Below the pieces are notes generated by a model, which had not been told where the DNA came from, searched no databases, and saw only the letters and a list, made by a program, of their open reading frames with translations. From Candidatus Gottesmanbacteria bacterium RIFCSPLOWO2_01_FULL_39_12b (GTDB taxonomy: Bacteria; Patescibacteriota; Microgenomatia; 2-02-FULL-39-11): 32,380 nt of DNA. The stretch lies in NCBI GenBank assembly GCA_001780955.1, contig MFJR01000006.1:1-32380 (forward strand), read 5' to 3'. Positions within the stretch are counted from its first letter, which is position 1. Each line of letters begins with the position of its first letter. Made by a program: the position numbers and the translations under genes. Below, piece by piece: positions 6,479-26,950 of this stretch.

Positions 6479-7042
6479 ATGATAAAAAAGATAAAGGTCG
6501 GGTTAGATTTTGACGGTGCGATTGCCTATAATCCCTTTAGAATTATTCGTGCTCCGGTAACCTACGTAAAAAGAAGCATCTTCGGAGCCAGAAAACTCAA
6601 CTTCTACTATCCGAAAAACAATTTCCAGAAATTACTTTGGAAGATTATTCATGAATCAAGTATCTTTCCGGCAAAGGGAATTGATGTGTTGCGCGATTTA
6701 GTGGCAAAAGAGCTGATTGAGGCTCATTTGATAACCGCCAGATACAGTTTTTTGAATAATCAGCTTTATACGTGGCTCGGAAAAAACAGGTTGACGGGGG
6801 TTTTCAAGACCATAAATATCAACGAAAAAGATGAACAACCTCATCTGTTTAAAGAAAAGATGGTAAATAAGCACAAATTGGCGATTTTTATCGAAGACAA
6901 TCTGGATATTGTCAAACATCTGCATGGAAGAAGCAAGACTAAAATTTACTGGATTTATAACATAGTGGACAGACATTATCCTCATCCGTATAAATTTCCC
7001 TATTTGGAAAGAGCCTTGGAAAAGATAATGAAACAGGTATGA
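6479..7042 (+). CDS. HAD-superfamily hydrolase (putative nucleotidase/phosphatase)
   Basis: This is a small HAD-like phosphohydrolase of 187 residues. The catalytic aspartate motif DFDG has D10 as the likely nucleophile and D12 as the likely acid/base. A second motif, LITAR, is near residue 79-83, and the acidic Mg-binding motif IEDNLD is near 140-145. The arrangement resembles the short NT5C/YqfW-type nucleotidase family, but the substrate cannot be read from the sequence. As the first gene of a run with a GT4, a methyltransferase and a GT2, it may dephosphorylate a sugar or nucleotide intermediate of glycan synthesis. The ATG follows an extended -10 by six bases, and no Shine-Dalgarno sequence exists, so the message is probably leaderless. 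Its stop overlaps the next start (ATGA). Confidence 0.75.
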   Translation: MIKKIKVGLDFDGAIAYNPFRIIRAPVTYVKRSIFGARKLNFYYPKNNFQKLLWKIIHESSIFPAKGIDVLRDLVAKELIEAHLITARYSFLNNQLYTWLGKNRLTGVFKTININEKDEQPHLFKEKMVNKHKLAIFIEDNLDIVKHLHGRSKTKIYWIYNIVDRHYPHPYKFPYLERALEKIMKQV

Positions 7043-8214
7043 AAATCCTTTTTTCCCTTACTTACTACACTCCATATGTTTCCGGCTTAACCTTATATGT
7101 CAAAAGACTGGCAGAAGCCTTAGCAAAAAAGAGCTATCAAGTATCTGTGATTAGTTTTCAGTATAGAAAGGACTTAAAGCTTGAAGAGGAGATTAATAAG
7201 GTTAGAATAATCAGAATACAACCGTTGTTTCGAATCAGTAAGGGATTTTTCTCTTTAAACTGGTTACTTAGAAACGTAAGGGAAGTGAAATTATCAGACA
7301 TTGTTGTGATTAATCTACCGCAGTTTGAAGGGATAGTACCGGCCATTCTTGCCAAAATATTCAACAAAAAACTAATTTGTATTTACCATTGCGAGGTAGT
7401 TTTACCAAACGGTTTTTTAAACAAGCTGGCCCAAACCTGTCTTAACTGGTCGAATTACTTAACCCTGTTTTTTTCTGATCAGGTAATTACCTACACCGGG
7501 GATTATGCCGGACATTCAAAAATTCTGCCAAGATTCTCTGATAAAACTAGGTATATTTATCCCCCAATCTTAGCTCCAAAAGTAGATAAAAGAGTACAAA
7601 AAGTGATCAGAGGAAAGTTAGGGTCAGACCTTAAACGCGTTAAAGGTCTGACCCTTATAGGTATTGCCGCTAGACTGGCAGCGGAAAAGGGGATAGAGTA
7701 CGTATTGGAAAGTATTCCAATACTAAGTTCAAAGTTCAAAGTTCAAAGTTCAAAGTTACGAGAACCAGGGATTAAGATTGTAATCGCAGGACCTGAAGAT
7801 CCGGTAGGAGAAGAGAGATACAGAGAGAAGATTAATCACTTAGTTGAGAAATATAAAGATTACGTTGTATTTATTGGAGAGTTAAAAGAAGAAGAGATGG
7901 GTTCTTTTTATTCGTTGCTTGATGTTTTGGTGCTTCCTTCGATCAATTCCACCGAGGCTTTTGGTATGGTTCAGGTGGAAGCGATGATGATGGGAATACC
8001 GGTTGTAGCGACTGACTTGCCAGGAGTTAGAGTGCCGATTCAAAAGACGGGGATGGGAAGAATAGTACCAATAAAAAATAGTGAAAAATTAGCAGAGGCA
8101 ATTATCGAAATTCTTCGAAATAAAAATAAATATATTAAGGATAAAGAATTTATCAAAAAAGAATTTTCCCTTGAGAAGACGATAGAGTTTTATAAGAAGT
8201 TATTGAGTTTGTAA
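7039..8214 (+). CDS. GT4-family glycosyltransferase
   Basis: This is a cytoplasmic retaining glycosyltransferase with the GT-B fold. The N-terminal domain opens with the usual SLTYYTPYVSGLTLYVKRLA stretch. The C-terminal domain starts at IGIAARLAAEKGIEYVLESI (about 210-230). The donor-site E-x7-E signature is in TEAFGMVQVEAMMMG, near residue 310. At 391 residues it has normal family length. Two segments look added. Residues about 195-206 (GSDLKRVKGLTL) are encoded by a 36-base palindrome at 7620-7655. Residues about 230-240 (SKFKVQSSKLR) come from a heptamer tract at 7725-7757. Both lie at loops and keep the frame. It overlaps the HAD gene by four bases and is followed by a methyltransferase after six. 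The sugar specificity is unknown, and a role in surface glycan assembly is inferred from the locus. Confidence 0.9.
   Translation: MKILFSLTYYTPYVSGLTLYVKRLAEALAKKSYQVSVISFQYRKDLKLEEEINKVRIIRIQPLFRISKGFFSLNWLLRNVREVKLSDIVVINLPQFEGIVPAILAKIFNKKLICIYHCEVVLPNGFLNKLAQTCLNWSNYLTLFFSDQVITYTGDYAGHSKILPRFSDKTRYIYPPILAPKVDKRVQKVIRGKLGSDLKRVKGLTLIGIAARLAAEKGIEYVLESIPILSSKFKVQSSKLREPGIKIVIAGPEDPVGEERYREKINHLVEKYKDYVVFIGELKEEEMGSFYSLLDVLVLPSINSTEAFGMVQVEAMMMGIPVVATDLPGVRVPIQKTGMGRIVPIKNSEKLAEAIIEILRNKNKYIKDKEFIKKEFSLEKTIEFYKKLLSL
7620..7655. repeat. palindromic element inside the GT4 gene (family A, copy 1)
   Basis: Arms AGGGTCAGACCTT (7620-7632) and AAGGTCTGACCCT (7643-7655) are perfect 13-bp complements. 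The centre, AAACGCGTTA, is nearly self-complementary. The length of 36 bases equals 12 codons, so the reading frame is kept. Read on the minus strand it encodes RVRPLTRLRSDP, almost the same peptide that copy 2 adds to the next gene (RVRPLARLRSDP). Confidence 0.85.
7725..7757. repeat. heptamer tandem repeat (GTTCAAA)4 inside the GT4 gene
   Basis: Four exact GTTCAAA units (7727-7754) with partial units on both sides give a 33-base tract, which is 11 codons. The same heptamer occurs on the minus strand at 23533-23597, where it encodes the same FKVQ peptide in a GT-C protein. Confidence 0.9.
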
Positions 8215-8220
8215 AAAAGG

Positions 8221-9042
8221 ATGAATCTAGAATCTATCTTAAAAAAATATCTTTCGGAGCGGCCTTTATTTCTCTCTCTTATAAGAGCTAAAGAAGCGGA
8301 GCTTTATCAGAAGTATTTACCGTTAAAAAAACCGGTATTAGATGTAGGTTGCGGAGACGGATTTTTCGTAAAGGTGACGTTTAGGGTCAGGCCTTTAGCG
8401 CGTTTAAGGTCTGACCCTGTTCGAGATTTAAGGCCTGACCCTGTGATAGATGTAGGATTAGATCTGAAAGACAGTCGAATTGAGGAAGCGAAACAATTAA
8501 ATATCTACAAAAAATTAGTTATTTACAATGGCAGAAAAATTCCTCTTCCAAACAATTCGTTTTCTACTGTTATCTCAAACTGCGTCTTGGAGCATGTTAG
8601 TGATCTATATAACGTAGTTAAAGAGGTTAACCGGGTGTTGAAACCCGAAGGAACGTTTTTGACAACAGTTATGGCTAAACCATGGGAGGAAAATTTATTT
8701 GGTACTAAAATTATCGGAGGAGCATATAAGGAATGGATGAGAAAAAGGCAATTGCACCGAAATTTATTATCAAGGACTGAATGGGATCAAATGTTTCAGA
8801 GGGCGGGTTTTACGATAAAAGAATCTACCGGTTACTTAAATCCTCAAGCCTGCGCAGTGATTGATCTCAGTCACTATTTATCAATTCCAAGTTTAATCTC
8901 TTATAAACTGTTCGGCAGATGGATATTGTTTGAGGGATTGGCCGTAAAACTTATCCCGGTCAAATATCTGGTAAAGGTTTTATCGGAAAAAGTGTTGAAA
9001 GATGAGTCCGGAGCCATATTTTACGCCTTAAAAAAGAAATGA
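8221..9042 (+). CDS. class I SAM-dependent methyltransferase
   Basis: A class I methyltransferase of 273 residues with motif I, LDVGCGDGFF, at 40-49, an acidic strand, VGLDLKDSRIEEA, at 78-90, and the Methyltransf_11-type NCVLEHVSDL near residue 122-131. The substrate is unknown. The neighbours suggest a sugar or a glycan-linked molecule. Between motif I and the acidic strand, residues about 54-74 are extra and are encoded by a three-armed palindromic element (8383-8442). In ordinary family members this connection is short. The ATG lies six bases after the GT4 stop, with AAAAGG touching it, so ribosome spacing is unusually tight and re-initiation after the upstream stop is likely. Its own stop overlaps the next start by four bases. 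Confidence 0.88.
   Translation: MNLESILKKYLSERPLFLSLIRAKEAELYQKYLPLKKPVLDVGCGDGFFVKVTFRVRPLARLRSDPVRDLRPDPVIDVGLDLKDSRIEEAKQLNIYKKLVIYNGRKIPLPNNSFSTVISNCVLEHVSDLYNVVKEVNRVLKPEGTFLTTVMAKPWEENLFGTKIIGGAYKEWMRKRQLHRNLLSRTEWDQMFQRAGFTIKESTGYLNPQACAVIDLSHYLSIPSLISYKLFGRWILFEGLAVKLIPVKYLVKVLSEKVLKDESGAIFYALKKK
8383..8442. repeat. palindromic element inside the methyltransferase gene (family A, copy 2)
   Basis: Three arms are present: AGGGTCAGGCCTT (8383-8395), AAGGTCTGACCCT (8406-8418) and AAGGCCTGACCCT (8430-8442). The first and third are perfect complements. The first and second pair with a single G-T. The total of 60 bases equals 20 codons and keeps the frame. It is about 730 bases from copy 1 and in the opposite orientation. 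Confidence 0.85.
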
Positions 9043-20897: not shown

Positions 20898-22708
20898 TAA
20901 TTAACAGGTCTGACCTTTTTAAAAATCAGTATCTTCGGATGATCATAGACGGTAAAAGTCTCATCGGCATAATCATCTACAAAACTTATACCATTAAGAT
21001 CGCATCTCTGATCTTTTTTAGCAATAATTCCATATCGGGCCAAAAGTGGAGTTAGACAAAGTTTGATAAAAGGAAGAGGAATATTCGGCCGGGAAGTAAA
21101 TTCCGCCACCTTTTCAAATCCCAGAGAGCCGTCAAACAAAGTTTGATAATATTTTTCTGTAACCGGATATTTTTTAGGATTTGTTAAAATAGAACCATAG
21201 AGACGGTTACTGGACATAATTATATAATCCGCTTGAGATAGTTTATCAATCATTTGCTTCCATTTGTCCTGCGTATCCGGCCAGTAAAGAGGAAACTCAA
21301 TACTTTGATATTTTTCGTGAATTTTACCGATCCCCGGTAAACTTAGCGGTAAATAGTCATCCCAATGTTCGCCGGAAAGTTTTGCACCCGGGGGGATATT
21401 TATATAGATCCAATTTGAAGCTTCAACTCTTGAATGACTTCGGGAGTAGATGGTGATGAAAGAGAGGGGATAAACAAGTACGAATATACAAATAAACAAA
21501 TAAACAAATAAACCAATTTTGTATTTTTTAAATACTTTGGAGATAAAATAGCCAGAGAGAATTGCTAAAAAAGGATAGATAGGAAAGAAATATCGAAGGG
21601 CTTTGACGAACTGAAATCCTTGATAGAAAAAAAGAATGAGAATCCAGAGGACAATAAGATTGAGTTGTGAGTTGTGAGTTGTGAGTTGTGAGTTAAATTT
21701 TCTTTTTATTAACTCGTAACCTACAACCCATAACCTATAACTGATTGCCAGTAAGGTAATTATTCCTAAGGGCAATCCCAGTCCCCACAAAATAAGATTT
21801 TTTAATGGGAATATATAAGGTTTAGTGTAAATCCATTGTATTGCAGGGGGAAAGCCGCCGCTGACATCATCAAAAGACTTCAGCTGTTTCCAGTTGTCCA
21901 GGACTTTTGGGTTCAAAGTAAAATCAAAAATATCGGGATTGGCAAAAAGGTATGGTTGCGCGAGGCGGAAAGTAAAATAAGTAGAAACAAAGAACAAAGA
22001 ACAAAGAACCCCGAAGCAGAGTAAGCTCGCTACGGGGCGGGCAAAGAAGGGAGTCTTATTTTTTATACATGCAATTATGAGTCCTAGACCAATTACCGGT
22101 AAGAAAAGCATCGCAGAGATTTTTGAGGCAAGCGCAAGACCGAAGGAGAAACCCAAGAGAGTATACAGTATATAGTATATAGTATTTAGTATTTTGGGGA
22201 AAGAGATGATTCTTATTAGTAGATAAAACGATAAAGTTATAAAGAATGTTAGATAAGTATCTACAGCGTAGAAGTGAGAAAGTTGAATAGGGAGAACCGA
22301 CGCGGCATAGAAAAAAGCCGCGAGTAACCCAATGATCCGACTTCTTTGTTTTCCGATCAGGAAAACGAGAATAACTGTACCAATATCAAATAACGCTGAA
22401 AGCTGCCTGCCTACAAGAGTTAAGTTAGTATAATCACCTTTTCCCAGACTTTCCGCTACCCATTTGGTAAAAAATATAGGGAACGTTCCATAGACAAAAA
22501 AACTAAAATTACGGTTATGAGGATTAAGGGGAGAGATGGCAGTATCTAGATATTCATTTAGATTCCTTGGCCAGGAGATGGCTGTTGAAACCATCGTTAA
22601 GAAGCGTTCATCAGGATGAAGATGTTGGTTTTGATCCCAGTTGAAACCGTAGAGTCGAAAAAAGGCGGATAGAAGTAAAATCCCGATTAATAATAGTTTA
22701 TGTTTCAT
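20876..22708 (-). CDS. GT39/ArnT-like membrane glycosyltransferase with embedded repeats
   Basis: A GT-C protein of 610 residues with a first helix at 4-21, then the catalytic-type HPDERF (31-36) and FFVYGTFPIFF. About eleven further helices follow, and a soluble C-terminal region runs from about 425. It is a paralogue of the next gene: both share an acidic PDER motif, an R-V-x-A-S-x-W-I-Y motif after the last helix and an F-x-V-x-D-H-P end. Four repeat tracts lie inside the frame: 22160-22194, 21987-22037, 21662-21694 and 21489-21514. All map to helix ends or loops and none breaks the frame. The last residues (FKKVRPVN) are encoded by a sequence resembling half of palindrome family A (20904-20914). 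Start ATG 22708 is four bases after the upstream stop. Confidence 0.8.
   Translation of the reverse strand: MKHKLLLIGILLLSAFFRLYGFNWDQNQHLHPDERFLTMVSTAISWPRNLNEYLDTAISPLNPHNRNFSFFVYGTFPIFFTKWVAESLGKGDYTNLTLVGRQLSALFDIGTVILVFLIGKQRSRIIGLLAAFFYAASVLPIQLSHFYAVDTYLTFFITLSFYLLIRIISFPKILNTIYYILYTLLGFSFGLALASKISAMLFLPVIGLGLIIACIKNKTPFFARPVASLLCFGVLCSLFFVSTYFTFRLAQPYLFANPDIFDFTLNPKVLDNWKQLKSFDDVSGGFPPAIQWIYTKPYIFPLKNLILWGLGLPLGIITLLAISYRLWVVGYELIKRKFNSQLTTHNSQLNLIVLWILILFFYQGFQFVKALRYFFPIYPFLAILSGYFISKVFKKYKIGLFVYLFICIFVLVYPLSFITIYSRSHSRVEASNWIYINIPPGAKLSGEHWDDYLPLSLPGIGKIHEKYQSIEFPLYWPDTQDKWKQMIDKLSQADYIIMSSNRLYGSILTNPKKYPVTEKYYQTLFDGSLGFEKVAEFTSRPNIPLPFIKLCLTPLLARYGIIAKKDQRCDLNGISFVDDYADETFTVYDHPKILIFKKVRPVNYYSLLYR
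21489..21514. repeat. octamer tandem repeat (AATAAACA) in a GT-C gene
   Basis: Three units of AATAAACA, the last ending in C, follow a CA. The 25 bases are identical to 23261-23285 in the paralogous gene. On the coding strand it encodes VYLFICIFV, part of the last membrane helix. Confidence 0.85.
21662..21694. repeat. heptamer tandem repeat (GTTGTGA)4 in a GT-C gene
   Basis: Four exact GTTGTGA units (21664-21691) with partial units give 33 bases, encoding NSQLTTHNSQL on the minus strand. The tract and the next three bases are identical to 25886-25921 in the unrelated FAD oxidoreductase gene. Confidence 0.92.
21987..22037. repeat. heptamer tract joined to a palindrome in a GT-C gene
   Basis: Three ACAAAGA units (21987-22007) run directly into a hairpin: CCCCGAAGC (22009-22017) pairs with GCTACGGGG (22029-22037) with one mismatch, and the loop has a small GAG/CTC stem. 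On the minus strand this reads RPVASLLCFGVLCSLFFV within the protein. Confidence 0.75.
22160..22194. repeat. heptamer tandem repeat (AGTATAT-like, five units) in a GT-C gene
   Basis: AGTATAC, AGTATAT twice and AGTATTT twice make 35 bases in frame. On the minus strand it encodes KILNTIYYILYT at a membrane segment. Confidence 0.8.
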
Positions 22709-22712
22709 TATT

Positions 22713-24731
22713 TTAATTTAATGTTATTATTTTTTTATATTCCTCTAAAGTCATTGGTTTAACCTTTCGATATATTCTAACAACCGGATGGTCAAAGACG
22801 GTAAAAGTTTCTTCTGCCTGTTCGTCGGGGATTTTGACCGGACCGATTGCCGGATACGAAGTTATTTCGGTTACTTTTTCAAATCCTAATTTGCCGGAAA
22901 ACAATAATTGATAATATTTTGTGGTCAATGGATACCTTGAGGGATTTTTCATATAATTGGCAAAGATTCTTCTGGAGGGGATGAAGATATAATCAGCATT
23001 TTCAAGATGTGTCAGAAGCTGTTGAAAAAGAAAAGGGTTTTCGTCCAAATGATAGAAATCAAAAGATATGGTTGTAAGTTGTGGGTTGTGAGCTGTAAGT
23101 TCAAGAAAACCAAGAGGGATATCAACCACATTAGCAGTTTCCGAGAGGATATATGATTTGTTAGGAACGTTGTCGTAAATCCATTTGGAGGCGGTTACTC
23201 TGGTGTCTTCGTGGGTATAGATGGACATAAACATTATCCCTGGAAGGATTGATGTAATGACAAATAAACAAATAAACAAATAAACTACATTGTCATTCCG
23301 AGCTTGTCGAGGAATCTTTTGTTTCCAAAGATCCCTCCACTTCGGTCGGGATGACACTAAGAAAAAAAGAAAATATCCGGCAAAGATAGCAAAAAAAGGT
23401 AAAATAGGCGTCATGAATCTTGTCCATTTGGCAAAAAGAAAAGCATTGGGGATAAAATAAATCCAAAATCCAATTATCAAAATTCCAATTAAATCCAAAT
23501 GATTAAAATCAAAATATTTTCTTATTCTTAATTTTTGAACTTTGAACTTTTCGGCCCGAGGCCGACCAGCCTTGGGTTGGGAACTTTGAACTTTTTGTAT
23601 TATGAACAGAATCAAACTTAGAAATAGTTTGAGGGTGGTTAAAAGAATACCAATACTACCTACTATAAACACCGGCCAGCCAAGGGCATAGGGAAATATT
23701 TTTTCCATCTGGAAAGTGATTGGAGTGGCATTGATAAATTGCCTAGTATAAAAAGCTTCGTATTTACCGGTAGCAACATCAGATTCATAACCGAAGACAG
23801 CGCTCCTGAAATTAGCCGGCTCGATGAGATTATAGGGTGAGGATATGACAAAAACCAGTAAACTTATTACGATAATTAAGTAAATCATGTAACCATGAAA
23901 CAAAGTAATCATCTTCCTCTTTTTTTTATTCCTGGAAACTGATTTAAACCAGTGGATCAATATTGCGATAGTAGGTGGAATATAGAGAAAAATCCCGGTA
24001 AGTTTGCTGCCCGTGGTAAGACCGATGACGAGTGAAGTGTAGAGTATGAATTTAAAGTTACTTAAGTGACTTAAGTAATTAATAGATAAATAAACTGAGG
24101 CCAGAAAGAAAAAGGTGAGAAGCGATTCCGTAGTGCCAAAATGGGATGCCTGGATTAGACCGGGAGTAAAGGCAGTTATGAGGGCAGCTAGGGTACCCGG
24201 TGTCATTCCGAGCCGCCAGCTGGCGGAGAGAAATCCAGCGAAGTGTATAGTACGTCCCGATTTAATCGGGACTAGATCTCTCACTTTGTTCGAGATGACA
24301 TTAGTAGTTAGATAAACGAGAAGCACAGTTAAAGTAGAGAATAGAGCGGAGTAAAAACGGAGCCAGAAGATGGCGGAAGGGAAGTCGGTTGAGAAATTCA
24401 AAGGCAAGGGCAGCCCTTGCAGCCATGCAAGGGCTGCCCTTGCAAGGCTATCGCTGATAAAAGCAAGATAGAGTGGAAATTGCCCGTAAGCAAAGAAATG
24501 AGGATTGAGATTACAGAGTGGTTGTTCCGATCGGGTTATTAATTCTGAGATCAAACATGAGGGAATTGCTGCCGGATTTGCCGGAAGTCTAAACTGGGTT
24601 ATTGCGTTTGCCATATTGCGTTCGTCGGGATTGAAAAAGAAAGGCGCATCGTGCATTAAATTATAAAATCGAAGTATGGCCGCGGTTAGGAAAATGATAA
24701 TTATGAGGTATGGTTTTTTATTAGAGGACAT
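22713..24731 (-). CDS. GT39/ArnT-like membrane glycosyltransferase with many embedded palindromes
   Basis: A GT-C protein of 672 residues, paralogous to the following gene. It has a first helix at 8-20, NPDERN (34-39) as the catalytic-type motif, FFAYGQFPLYL (79-89), about eleven helices and a soluble end. It carries more embedded repeats than any other gene here: a 40-base palindrome (residues about 97-110), a 100-base composite palindrome (144-177), a heptamer-palindrome-heptamer block (380-400), a 66-base palindrome (459-481), an octamer tract (482-490) and degenerate heptamers (544-554). All leave the frame open. The added peptides (for example KIPRQARND, GRTIHFAGFLSASW) are those that such palindromes typically encode. 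Length is therefore well above the 610 of its paralogue. The start overlaps the UbiA gene by 11 bases. Confidence 0.8.
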   Translation of the reverse strand: MSSNKKPYLIIIIFLTAAILRFYNLMHDAPFFFNPDERNMANAITQFRLPANPAAIPSCLISELITRSEQPLCNLNPHFFAYGQFPLYLAFISDSLARAALAWLQGLPLPLNFSTDFPSAIFWLRFYSALFSTLTVLLVYLTTNVISNKVRDLVPIKSGRTIHFAGFLSASWRLGMTPGTLAALITAFTPGLIQASHFGTTESLLTFFFLASVYLSINYLSHLSNFKFILYTSLVIGLTTGSKLTGIFLYIPPTIAILIHWFKSVSRNKKKRKMITLFHGYMIYLIIVISLLVFVISSPYNLIEPANFRSAVFGYESDVATGKYEAFYTRQFINATPITFQMEKIFPYALGWPVFIVGSIGILLTTLKLFLSLILFIIQKVQSSQPKAGRPRAEKFKVQKLRIRKYFDFNHLDLIGILIIGFWIYFIPNAFLFAKWTRFMTPILPFFAIFAGYFLFFLVSSRPKWRDLWKQKIPRQARNDNVVYLFICLFVITSILPGIMFMSIYTHEDTRVTASKWIYDNVPNKSYILSETANVVDIPLGFLELTAHNPQLTTISFDFYHLDENPFLFQQLLTHLENADYIFIPSRRIFANYMKNPSRYPLTTKYYQLLFSGKLGFEKVTEITSYPAIGPVKIPDEQAEETFTVFDHPVVRIYRKVKPMTLEEYKKIITLN
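23071..23101. repeat. degenerate heptamer tract (GTTGTGA-like) in a GT-C gene
   Basis: GTTGTAA, GTTGTGG, GTTGTGA and GCTGTAA are followed by GTT. It is the same family as 21662-21694 and 25886-25918 but has decayed, encoding ELTAHNPQLTT. Confidence 0.75.
23261..23286. repeat. octamer tandem repeat (AATAAACA) in a GT-C gene
   Basis: It shares 25 identical bases with 21489-21513 in the paralogue, at the matching place in the protein. It lies four bases from the 66-base palindrome. Confidence 0.85.
23291..23356. repeat. 66-base palindromic element (family B, copy 1) in a GT-C gene
   Basis: It begins TGTCATTCCGAG and ends GTCGGGATGACA. The arms pair imperfectly over the whole length, including GGAATCTT with AAGATCCC. 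It is 22 codons long, in frame, and encodes SSRPKWRDLWKQKIPRQARN on the minus strand. This matches the widespread TCATTCCGAGC-type intergenic palindromes, here inside a gene. Confidence 0.85.
23533..23597. repeat. palindrome inserted in a heptamer tract, in a GT-C gene
   Basis: TTTGAAC units at 23534-23547 and 23585-23591 (TTTGAAC again, with flanking partial units) surround CCCGAGGC (23555-23562), a 6-base loop and GCCTTGGG (23569-23576). The heptamer is the same as in the GT4 gene at 7725-7757. The palindrome seems to have split an older heptamer tract. Confidence 0.8.
24201..24300. repeat. 100-base composite palindrome (family B, copy 2) in a GT-C gene
   Basis: The outer ends, TGTCATTCCGAG and CGAGATGACA, are those of family B. 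Inside lie two more perfect palindromes: CCGCCAGCTGGCGG (24213-24226) and GTCCCGAT-TTA-ATCGGGAC (24254-24272). The second shares CCCGATTTAATCGGG with 25684-25698. This looks like repeats nested in a repeat. Confidence 0.85.
24404..24443. repeat. 18-bp perfect inverted repeat in a GT-C gene
   Basis: GCAAGGGCAGCCCTTGCA (24404-24421) and its exact complement (24426-24443) are separated by GCCA. Each arm is itself nearly palindromic. On the minus strand it encodes ARAALAWLQGLP. Confidence 0.9.
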
Positions 24732-25700: not shown

Positions 25701-26950
25701 CAACCTCCATTATTTACGATTTCTGCTACTTGAAAACCTAATTCTATCGCATAATTAGTCCCTCTATCCCATGGATAAACCATGTCCATATTAGCTAAAT
25801 AAACTTGGGGAATTGGCGTTTTGAAACCCGGTTTGATTTGGGAATAATTTGTCTTAAAGACCGGTTGAGCGAAGGGACCAAAAAAGAGTTGTGAGTTGTG
25901 AGTTGTGAGTTGTGAGTTAAAATTCGGATTTATTTTTTTAATAAAGGGAAGATAAAGCTGGAGTAATTCTTCTTTAGTCAGTTTAAGATATGGATGGTTA
26001 GGGGGAAGATAATTTGCTATCCAGGTAATATGCTGGCCATTATATTGTTTACAGCTTATTAAATTGGTTTGTTGTACTATGGCAATAAAAGGGAATTTAC
26101 GGTCGTTGATGTTTAACCAGTAAACCTTGTCCAGGATTTTATCTTTGGTAAACAGCAATAAATTATAGGCATGCAGGTGAGGGATTTTTGTAATTTTTTT
26201 AATATAATCCTTAGGCAATTTTGGAAACATCTTCGCAAAAATTGCCGACGGAGTGGTAATAATTATTTTATCAAATTTACTTGTTAGACTTTCCTTAAAT
26301 TCATTATCGAGCAATATTTGTCCTCGATTTCTGACAAACGCTTTTGCGATTGATTCAAGAAGAATCTGATAACCACCCGAAAGATATCCCAACCGCGGCG
26401 TCCTTTTTTTTATTCTTGCCCAAAACCAGGCCATATTGACAGTTTCGGCATATGGCCCGAATTTTCCATCCAAAAGAGGTTTCCACAACAGATTAAAAGT
26501 TTTTAGCCCAAAATAGCGTTTTAACCAGTCATAAGCACTCCAATCTTCAAGACTCTGCCCTGATGTTTTGGGTAAAATTTTTAAGTAAGTCAGAATTAAA
26601 CCAGTTCGCAGGCGCTCTATAAAGGTTAAAGGTGAAAAGGTTAAAACATCCCAGGGAGAATTGAAAGGATACGTTTTATTACCGTAATAAATTGAGGTGA
26701 CAGTTTTGGGAAAGAGGAGATGCTTTTTTAATCCGAGTTCTTCTATTAAATCCAAAGCATAGGAATCATTTGTGAACCAGTGGTGATAGTGTTTTTCCAA
26801 AGCCCAACTCATCCCTGGTAATTTAAAGGTTCCTGCCAGTCCGCCAAGAGTTTTTTCTTTTTCAAAGAGGGTTACCTCATGATTTAGTTTGGAGAGTATA
26901 TAGGCAGCAGATAGACCGCTAAAACCGGCTCCGACAACGGCTATTTTCAT
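25700..26950 (-). CDS. FAD-dependent amine oxidase-like protein (NAD(P)/FAD oxidoreductase)
   Basis: A flavoprotein of 416 residues. The dinucleotide-binding motif VVGAGFSGLSAAYIL is at 5-19, followed by LFEKEKTLGGLAGTF (29-43). The C-terminal FAD contact region is VYPWDRGTNYAIELG near 392-406. It resembles protoporphyrinogen oxidase/UDP-galactopyranose mutase-like proteins that sit in polysaccharide loci. The conserved EKHYHHWF near 52-59 is typical of this locus-associated group. The reaction is unknown, with oxidation or isomerisation of a lipid- or nucleotide-linked sugar a reasonable guess. A heptamer tract (25886-25918) adds NSQLTTHNSQL at about 345-355, a peptide also found in the GT-C gene. 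The start overlaps the upstream stop by four bases. Confidence 0.83.
   Translation of the reverse strand: MKIAVVGAGFSGLSAAYILSKLNHEVTLFEKEKTLGGLAGTFKLPGMSWALEKHYHHWFTNDSYALDLIEELGLKKHLLFPKTVTSIYYGNKTYPFNSPWDVLTFSPLTFIERLRTGLILTYLKILPKTSGQSLEDWSAYDWLKRYFGLKTFNLLWKPLLDGKFGPYAETVNMAWFWARIKKRTPRLGYLSGGYQILLESIAKAFVRNRGQILLDNEFKESLTSKFDKIIITTPSAIFAKMFPKLPKDYIKKITKIPHLHAYNLLLFTKDKILDKVYWLNINDRKFPFIAIVQQTNLISCKQYNGQHITWIANYLPPNHPYLKLTKEELLQLYLPFIKKINPNFNSQLTTHNSQLFFGPFAQPVFKTNYSQIKPGFKTPIPQVYLANMDMVYPWDRGTNYAIELGFQVAEIVNNGG
25886..25918. repeat. heptamer tandem repeat (GTTGTGA)4 in the FAD oxidoreductase gene
   Basis: Four exact GTTGTGA units with partial ends, 33 bases, are identical to 21662-21694 including the next three bases. 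It is in frame and encodes the same NSQLTTHNSQL peptide in an unrelated protein. Confidence 0.92.

Follow-up and report, generated by a model that had tools for sequence, protein, structure and literature searches.

In-frame 36-bp palindromes in genes of a Patescibacteria genome: a probable REP-dimer mobile family with a candidate RAYT/TIRYT-type transposase

The genome of Candidatus Gottesmanbacteria bacterium RIFCSPLOWO2_01_FULL_39_12b contains a family of 36-bp palindromes located in frame inside protein-coding genes. These palindromes are very probably non-autonomous REP-dimer mobile elements, which invade coding sequence and are probably spread by a RAYT/TIRYT-type transposase of the same genome. 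The window, the whole stretch of 32,380 nucleotides that was analysed, belongs to a Patescibacteria genome of the Microgenomates type (G000) composed of 15 contigs with 1,270,953 bases; because this genome is 84% complete, the copy counts given here are lower bounds. All genomes compared are metagenome-assembled. The family consensus is [A/G]GGGTCAGRCCTT-N10-AAGGYCTGACCC[C/T], with inverted 13-bp arms around a 10-nt loop. The exact 13-base arm has 23 matches in G000 and the reversed control pattern none, and a search with the 34-bp core (up to two mismatches) found 22 copies against none for the control; these genome-wide counts and the zero control matches rule out chance palindromes. When mismatches are allowed, 23 complete elements are present, of which 22 have exactly 36 bp and the remaining one 35 bp. 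Mean identity between copies is 92% in the arms and 58% in the loops, as expected if recopying needs intact arms. The stem has at most one mismatch in any copy, and the terminal bases pair in every case, as G-C in 12 and as A-T in 10 of the 22 copies of 36 bp. A target site duplication is unsupported, with 3-bp direct repeats at 3 of 35 copies (0.7 expected) and none of 4 or 5 bp. G is almost absent beside the element and positions -2 and -4 are A/T-rich, a preference too weak to be named as a target site. The distribution is patchy: copies were found in five of the 187 genomes searched, G000 counted, and exact matches in only three organisms of the genome collection. Carriage by phages or viruses was also considered and rejected, as the viral contig collection gave no match.

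Within the window, exact arms occur at two sites only, in two neighbouring genes. The gene for a GT4 glycosyltransferase (7039..8214, + strand, 391 aa) has one element at 7620..7655, in the linker joining the two domains; it is composed of AGGGTCAGACCTT-AAACGCGTTA-AAGGTCTGACCCT and is read in phase 2 as LGSDLKRVKGLTL. The adjacent SAM methyltransferase gene (8221..9042, + strand, 273 aa) has an element and an extra arm shortly 3' of motif I. Its 36-bp palindrome (AGGGTCAGGCCTT-TAGCGCGTTT-AAGGTCTGACCCT, phase 0) occupies 8383..8418 and is followed at 8419..8442 by an extension of 24 bp (8 codons), made up of an 11-nt spacer and, at 8430-8442, the third arm AAGGCCTGACCCT. This arm pairs without mismatch with the other outer arm (8383-8395), both being of the GGCC type. 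The protein contains RVRPLARLRSDPVRDLRPDP from the element, with the fuller reading RVRPLARLRSDP followed by VRDLRPDP.

Most of what the initial annotation had proposed for these sites was borne out. Both palindromes, at 7620-7655 and 8383-8442, lie in ORFs, their lengths are whole codons (36 bp in the first gene, 36 + 24 bp in the second) and they are placed in the interdomain linker and shortly after motif I; the third arm, suspected to be a partial duplication, corresponds to one extra REP unit. The peptide RVRPL[T/A]RLRSDP, given as the reading of both copies in matching orientation, needs correction, as the coding strand of the GT4 gene reads LGSDLKRVKGLTL and RVRPLTRLRSDP comes from the other strand of that copy. 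Likewise, the element is a near-perfect palindrome, so the "opposite orientation" of the two copies is mainly a difference in reading phase (2 in GT4, 0 in the methyltransferase). Alignable relatives of both proteins are without the element, as anticipated. The methyltransferase is approximately 18-20 residues longer than most of its alignable relatives, directly past motif I. In GT4, the excess over the nearest relatives is just 5-6 residues, within the two-domain linker, and this net gain of +5 to +6 falls short of a clean 12-residue gain. Overall, the interpretation as an inserted palindromic element is supported.

Other repeats are present in the window. A membrane glycosyltransferase-like gene (ORF 22713-24731, - strand) has an in-frame palindrome of a second family at 24404-24443, GCAAGGGCAGCCCTTGC-AGCCAT-GCAAGGGCTGCCCTTGC, and further copies of this family are at C7:526503 and C8:6278, both in open gene frames. 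A third family, whose ends are TGTCATTCCGA, is represented twice in the same ORF, at 23291-23356 (66 bp) and 24201-24300 (100 bp), and both copies are read through in frame (VSSRPKWRDL...RQARNDN and VISNKVRDL...RLGMT); this one protein therefore has three palindromic inserts. More in-frame copies of the third family are in gatB (C7:218953) and at C13:80410. In addition, 7-base tandem repeats (AAGTTCA or TTGTGAG) occur within genes at 7728-7757, 21662-21710 and 25886-25934, read in frame as SSKFKVQSSK and NSQLTTHNSQL. Outside G000, a related family to the 36-bp one, AAGGTCAGGCCTT, is found in G093 and G102 (L082-L084), which belong to another family of the class; FolD is among its hosts and it has degenerate extra arms.

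As to the genome search suggested by the initial annotation, G000 has 23 full copies of the 36-bp family, at least 20 of them in frame in genes. According to the ORF reading, 19 of the 23 complete copies lie in frame within long genes, and a twentieth, at the end of contig C3, is also in frame (LYVPI-RVRPLTPLRSDP-VKRQGFTVTDWGG). The three copies outside that set are at C7:527845, at C9:44571 and at the end of the transposase gene. Since approximately 92% of the window is coding (sum of ORFs), there is no sign of the family avoiding genes. The host genes include three for GT4 proteins, the methyltransferase, gatB, carA, purD, rsmI, pheT, folD and aspS, as well as an ATP-dependent DNA ligase gene, a Nudix/IDI-like gene, genes for large membrane and surface proteins, and others. 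These are the names we take to apply from the translations and established family knowledge; those of PurD and AspS were checked against solved homologues. Every copy has a fixed TGA in one of its three phases, and this phase is used by none of the 18 tabulated genic copies of 36 bp, of which seven are in phase 0 and 11 in phase 2; the chance of this is (2/3)^18 = 7e-4. The 35-bp copy (C7:197049), although not of whole-codon length, is in an open frame. Two common peptides result from the element, RVRPLxxLRSDP and GSDLKxxKGLTP, both with a variable middle. A relative from the same taxonomic family, apparently another Gottesmanbacteria (G010), has all of its seven copies in frame, with hosts that include PurD and a SecA-like protein in which the element precedes the C-terminal SEC-C motif.

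The nearest relatives of the housekeeping hosts are without the element, save the G010 PurD with its own copy; these relatives belong to other genera, and the absence is thus read across genera. The net gain over the closest relatives is exactly 12 residues in PurD, nine in CarA and about six in AspS, and just two to three in GatB, RsmI and FolD. Against its best solved homologue (2yw2), PurD shows a clean 12-residue gap. Net gains below 12 residues may reflect replacement of target bases on insertion, or later trimming. At four of these sites, relatives have a different hairpin-forming insert in frame: in G002, the methyltransferase insert ends in CTCGGGATGACA (TGTCAT type), RsmI has a TCATGCTGAACTTG-type hairpin and PheT a hairpin related to this type, and in G012 the GT4 gene has CCCGATTTAATCGGG. 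The survival of an insert seems to be decided by the host loop and not by the element. Two sites are shared, or nearly so, with G010. In the C3 gene, the G010 homologue has the element at the same codon (L031:16-51 and L080:2971-3006), and the arms are identical, in contrast to the diverged coding sequence next to them. The purD elements (L036 and L078) occupy the same loop; a single compensating pair distinguishes their arms, and the flanks have diverged. Independent insertions into one loop are possible, above all in PurD; if the sites are orthologous, the arms would have been kept perfect by something besides selection on the protein.

G000 has six Y1_Tnp genes. One of them, at C7:547583-548230, encodes the candidate transposase of the family (Y1_Tnp, 53.5 bits, over the cut-off), which also scores 83.7 bits against the NCBIfam model NF047646, REP_Tyr_transpos (cut-off 80); a search of the PDB gave no match at 1e-3, so the assignment rests on Pfam and NCBIfam. 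The motif GGGGTCAGACCTTGAT is located around 35-50 bases before the start of this gene, and a complete 36-bp element overlaps its stop codon. The nearest orthologues among 374 genomes of the class are in G109 (60%) and G180 (54%). The G180 gene has the identical motif, inverted, at both ends, and that genome has one element, in a SecA-like gene. The orthologue in G109 has different ends, CGAGGCCTGGCCT, from which dispersed CGAGGCC palindromes were predicted in that genome. These were found at approximately 11 places in G109 and at none in G000, G010, G180, G060 and G021, with a few matches of the reversed control pattern in several genomes as well. The majority of the G109 places fall within recognisable genes whose frame is open (GatB, TrpS, M24 peptidase, IDI), with the 15-bp core read as RPGL. 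A match in Rho (GQARPP) was set aside as probably natural sequence rather than an insertion. In G010, the best transposase match (42%) has other flanks, GGGACGGTCCTT, which suggests a mover that is absent, lost or unassembled. Four other Y1 transposase genes of G000 have apparently their own distinct flanking repeats: AAGGTTGGACCTT at C7:502546 (L054), CACCTGGGAGGTGA at C7:535072 (L055), CACCTGGAAGGTG at C13:35481 (L057) and GCCGGGCATGG at C7:483975 (L056).

In the mechanism that we propose, the mobile unit would be the short REP-like [A/G]GGGTCAGRCCTT, dimerised in inverted order with the 10-nt loop, and the probable mover is the HUH tyrosine transposase of RAYT/TIRYT type at C7:547583-548230. 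Like the IS200/IS605 and TnpA-REP enzymes on which this scheme is modelled, the transposase would recognise the hairpin in single-stranded form and excise or copy it, and the hairpin would be joined into new sites without target duplication. An insertion into a gene lengthens it by 12 codons without necessarily destroying it, because the element has exactly 36 bp and no fixed stop in two of the three phases. Purifying selection would then retain those copies whose phase is open and whose protein loop accommodates additional residues, and the host proteins are presumably translated through the element and still active.

The strong and nearly perfect stems, together with the arms that are identical or compensated at the two sites shared with G010 while the flanks diverged, could also indicate regulatory or structural hairpins of DNA or RNA (mRNA stability, attenuation, nucleoid or repair sites) that selection maintains within genes. 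We regard this as unlikely, because the elements are in the middle of unrelated genes, with both strands and both open phases represented, nearly all relatives are without them, and their sequence is common to the transposase gene ends, which change along with the transposase. Spread through template switching during replication or gene conversion, with a mere resemblance to transposase ends, would not predict that motif and transposase covary across three genomes. The probability of this explanation is very low, even though correction by template switching agrees with the perfect complementarity of the arms and with the compensating changes, and no transposase matching the copies of G010 was found in that genome.

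Two further alternatives concern the protein, and both appear extremely improbable. Selection of the peptide itself, as a tag or as an interaction or localisation motif, would account for the open frame that at least 20 genes keep across the element, but there are two different common peptides, with a variable middle and in unrelated hosts, and the families GCAAGGGC and TGTCATTCCGA yield yet other in-frame peptides. The hairpins could also be cut from the mRNA or bypassed by the ribosome, and be absent from the proteins, as is reported for Magnusiomyces mitochondria; palindromes that interrupt conserved genes are the form of translational bypass elements reported in PMC6649704. Skipping would make length and stops irrelevant, yet 22 of 23 copies are whole-codon and no genic copy of 36 bp is read in the stop phase.

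A wider reading of these palindromes as mobile REP dimers is tentative and stands at rather less than even chances: in Patescibacteria, RAYT-class transposases and whole-codon hairpins may constitute a standing mechanism of peptide insertion into essential proteins, in which several unrelated families recur in the same permissive loops and, at orthologous sites, perfect arms are actively maintained from genus to genus. If true, it would supply the kind of transposase that is missing for the protein-invading palindromes of the Rickettsia type. To our knowledge, such palindromes have so far been an oddity of Rickettsia and Wolbachia, and no transposase or other mover has been assigned to the Rickettsia palindromic elements (RPEs). 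The RPE-like family described here is paired with a candidate transposase bearing matching ends, which makes the mechanism testable in vitro. An element of whole-codon length may, moreover, be a simple way for small, gene-dense genomes to acquire new protein loops. Annotators of these proteins should take runs such as RVRPLxxLRSDP or GSDLKxxKGLTP as mobile DNA and not as conserved motifs.

The initial annotation had named RPEs as the precedent. This holds for the behaviour of the family, which is apparently that of an RPE by analogy (in frame, tolerated and selfish); the nearer relation is to REP dimers of RAYT/TIRYT type, as the motif flanks a transposase gene. RPEs and their Wolbachia counterparts likewise consist of palindromes inserted in frame in numerous conserved protein genes, and their hosts tolerate them. 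The RPEs reviewed in PMC2229807 have a length of 105-146 bp, against 36 bp here. RPEs are also reported to lose repeat identity over time (PMC6649704), whereas here the arms are exact or compensated at sites common to two genera. RPE-4 and RPE-6 are described as REP-like in PMC3733652, where the intragenic CGTC repeats of Rickettsia conorii are equated with them.

With the REP/REPIN and RAYT (TnpA-REP) systems, the family shares short palindromic units, inverted dimers, a variable loop and a cognate transposase. Classical REPs are mostly extragenic and often exceed 100 copies per genome (PMC2817692), whereas at least 20 of the 23 copies here are intragenic; occasional intragenic REP copies are described in PMC3733652 for Opitutus terrae and others. 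A conserved GTAG beside the stem was found at neither end in 35 copies, and the family is not a GTAG REP. Its anatomy most likely places it among the TIRYT/RAYT repeats of Di Nocera (2013), the GGGGWSAS motif included. As in the TIRYT/TIRtrons presented in that study (PMC3733652), the gene of a RAYT-like, REP-associated Y1/HUH transposase is flanked by inverted repeat copies (here GGGGTCAGACCTTGAT upstream and a full element at the stop), the flanking repeat forms a moderately abundant dispersed family, often of dimers, and it is specific to its own transposase, the G109 end motif being dispersed only there among six genomes. The same text gives GGGGWSAS as a terminal motif common to some TIRs; GGGGTCAG fits it by inspection, and 10 of the 22 copies of 36 bp begin with AGGGTCAG instead. 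In contrast to those systems, nearly all copies here are genic, and the pairing of motif and transposase was traced across three genomes; a Patescibacteria host is not mentioned in the accessible text of PMC3733652. In the open-access literature, we found no report of in-frame palindromes in Patescibacteria, and no description of a family that is paired with a RAYT and confined almost entirely to genes, or of any such family in Patescibacteria. TIRYT/RAYT repeats (Di Nocera 2013) and in-frame RPE palindromes are already known, and what is new with respect to that literature is the near-exclusive genic distribution, the host phylum and the pairing with a transposase.
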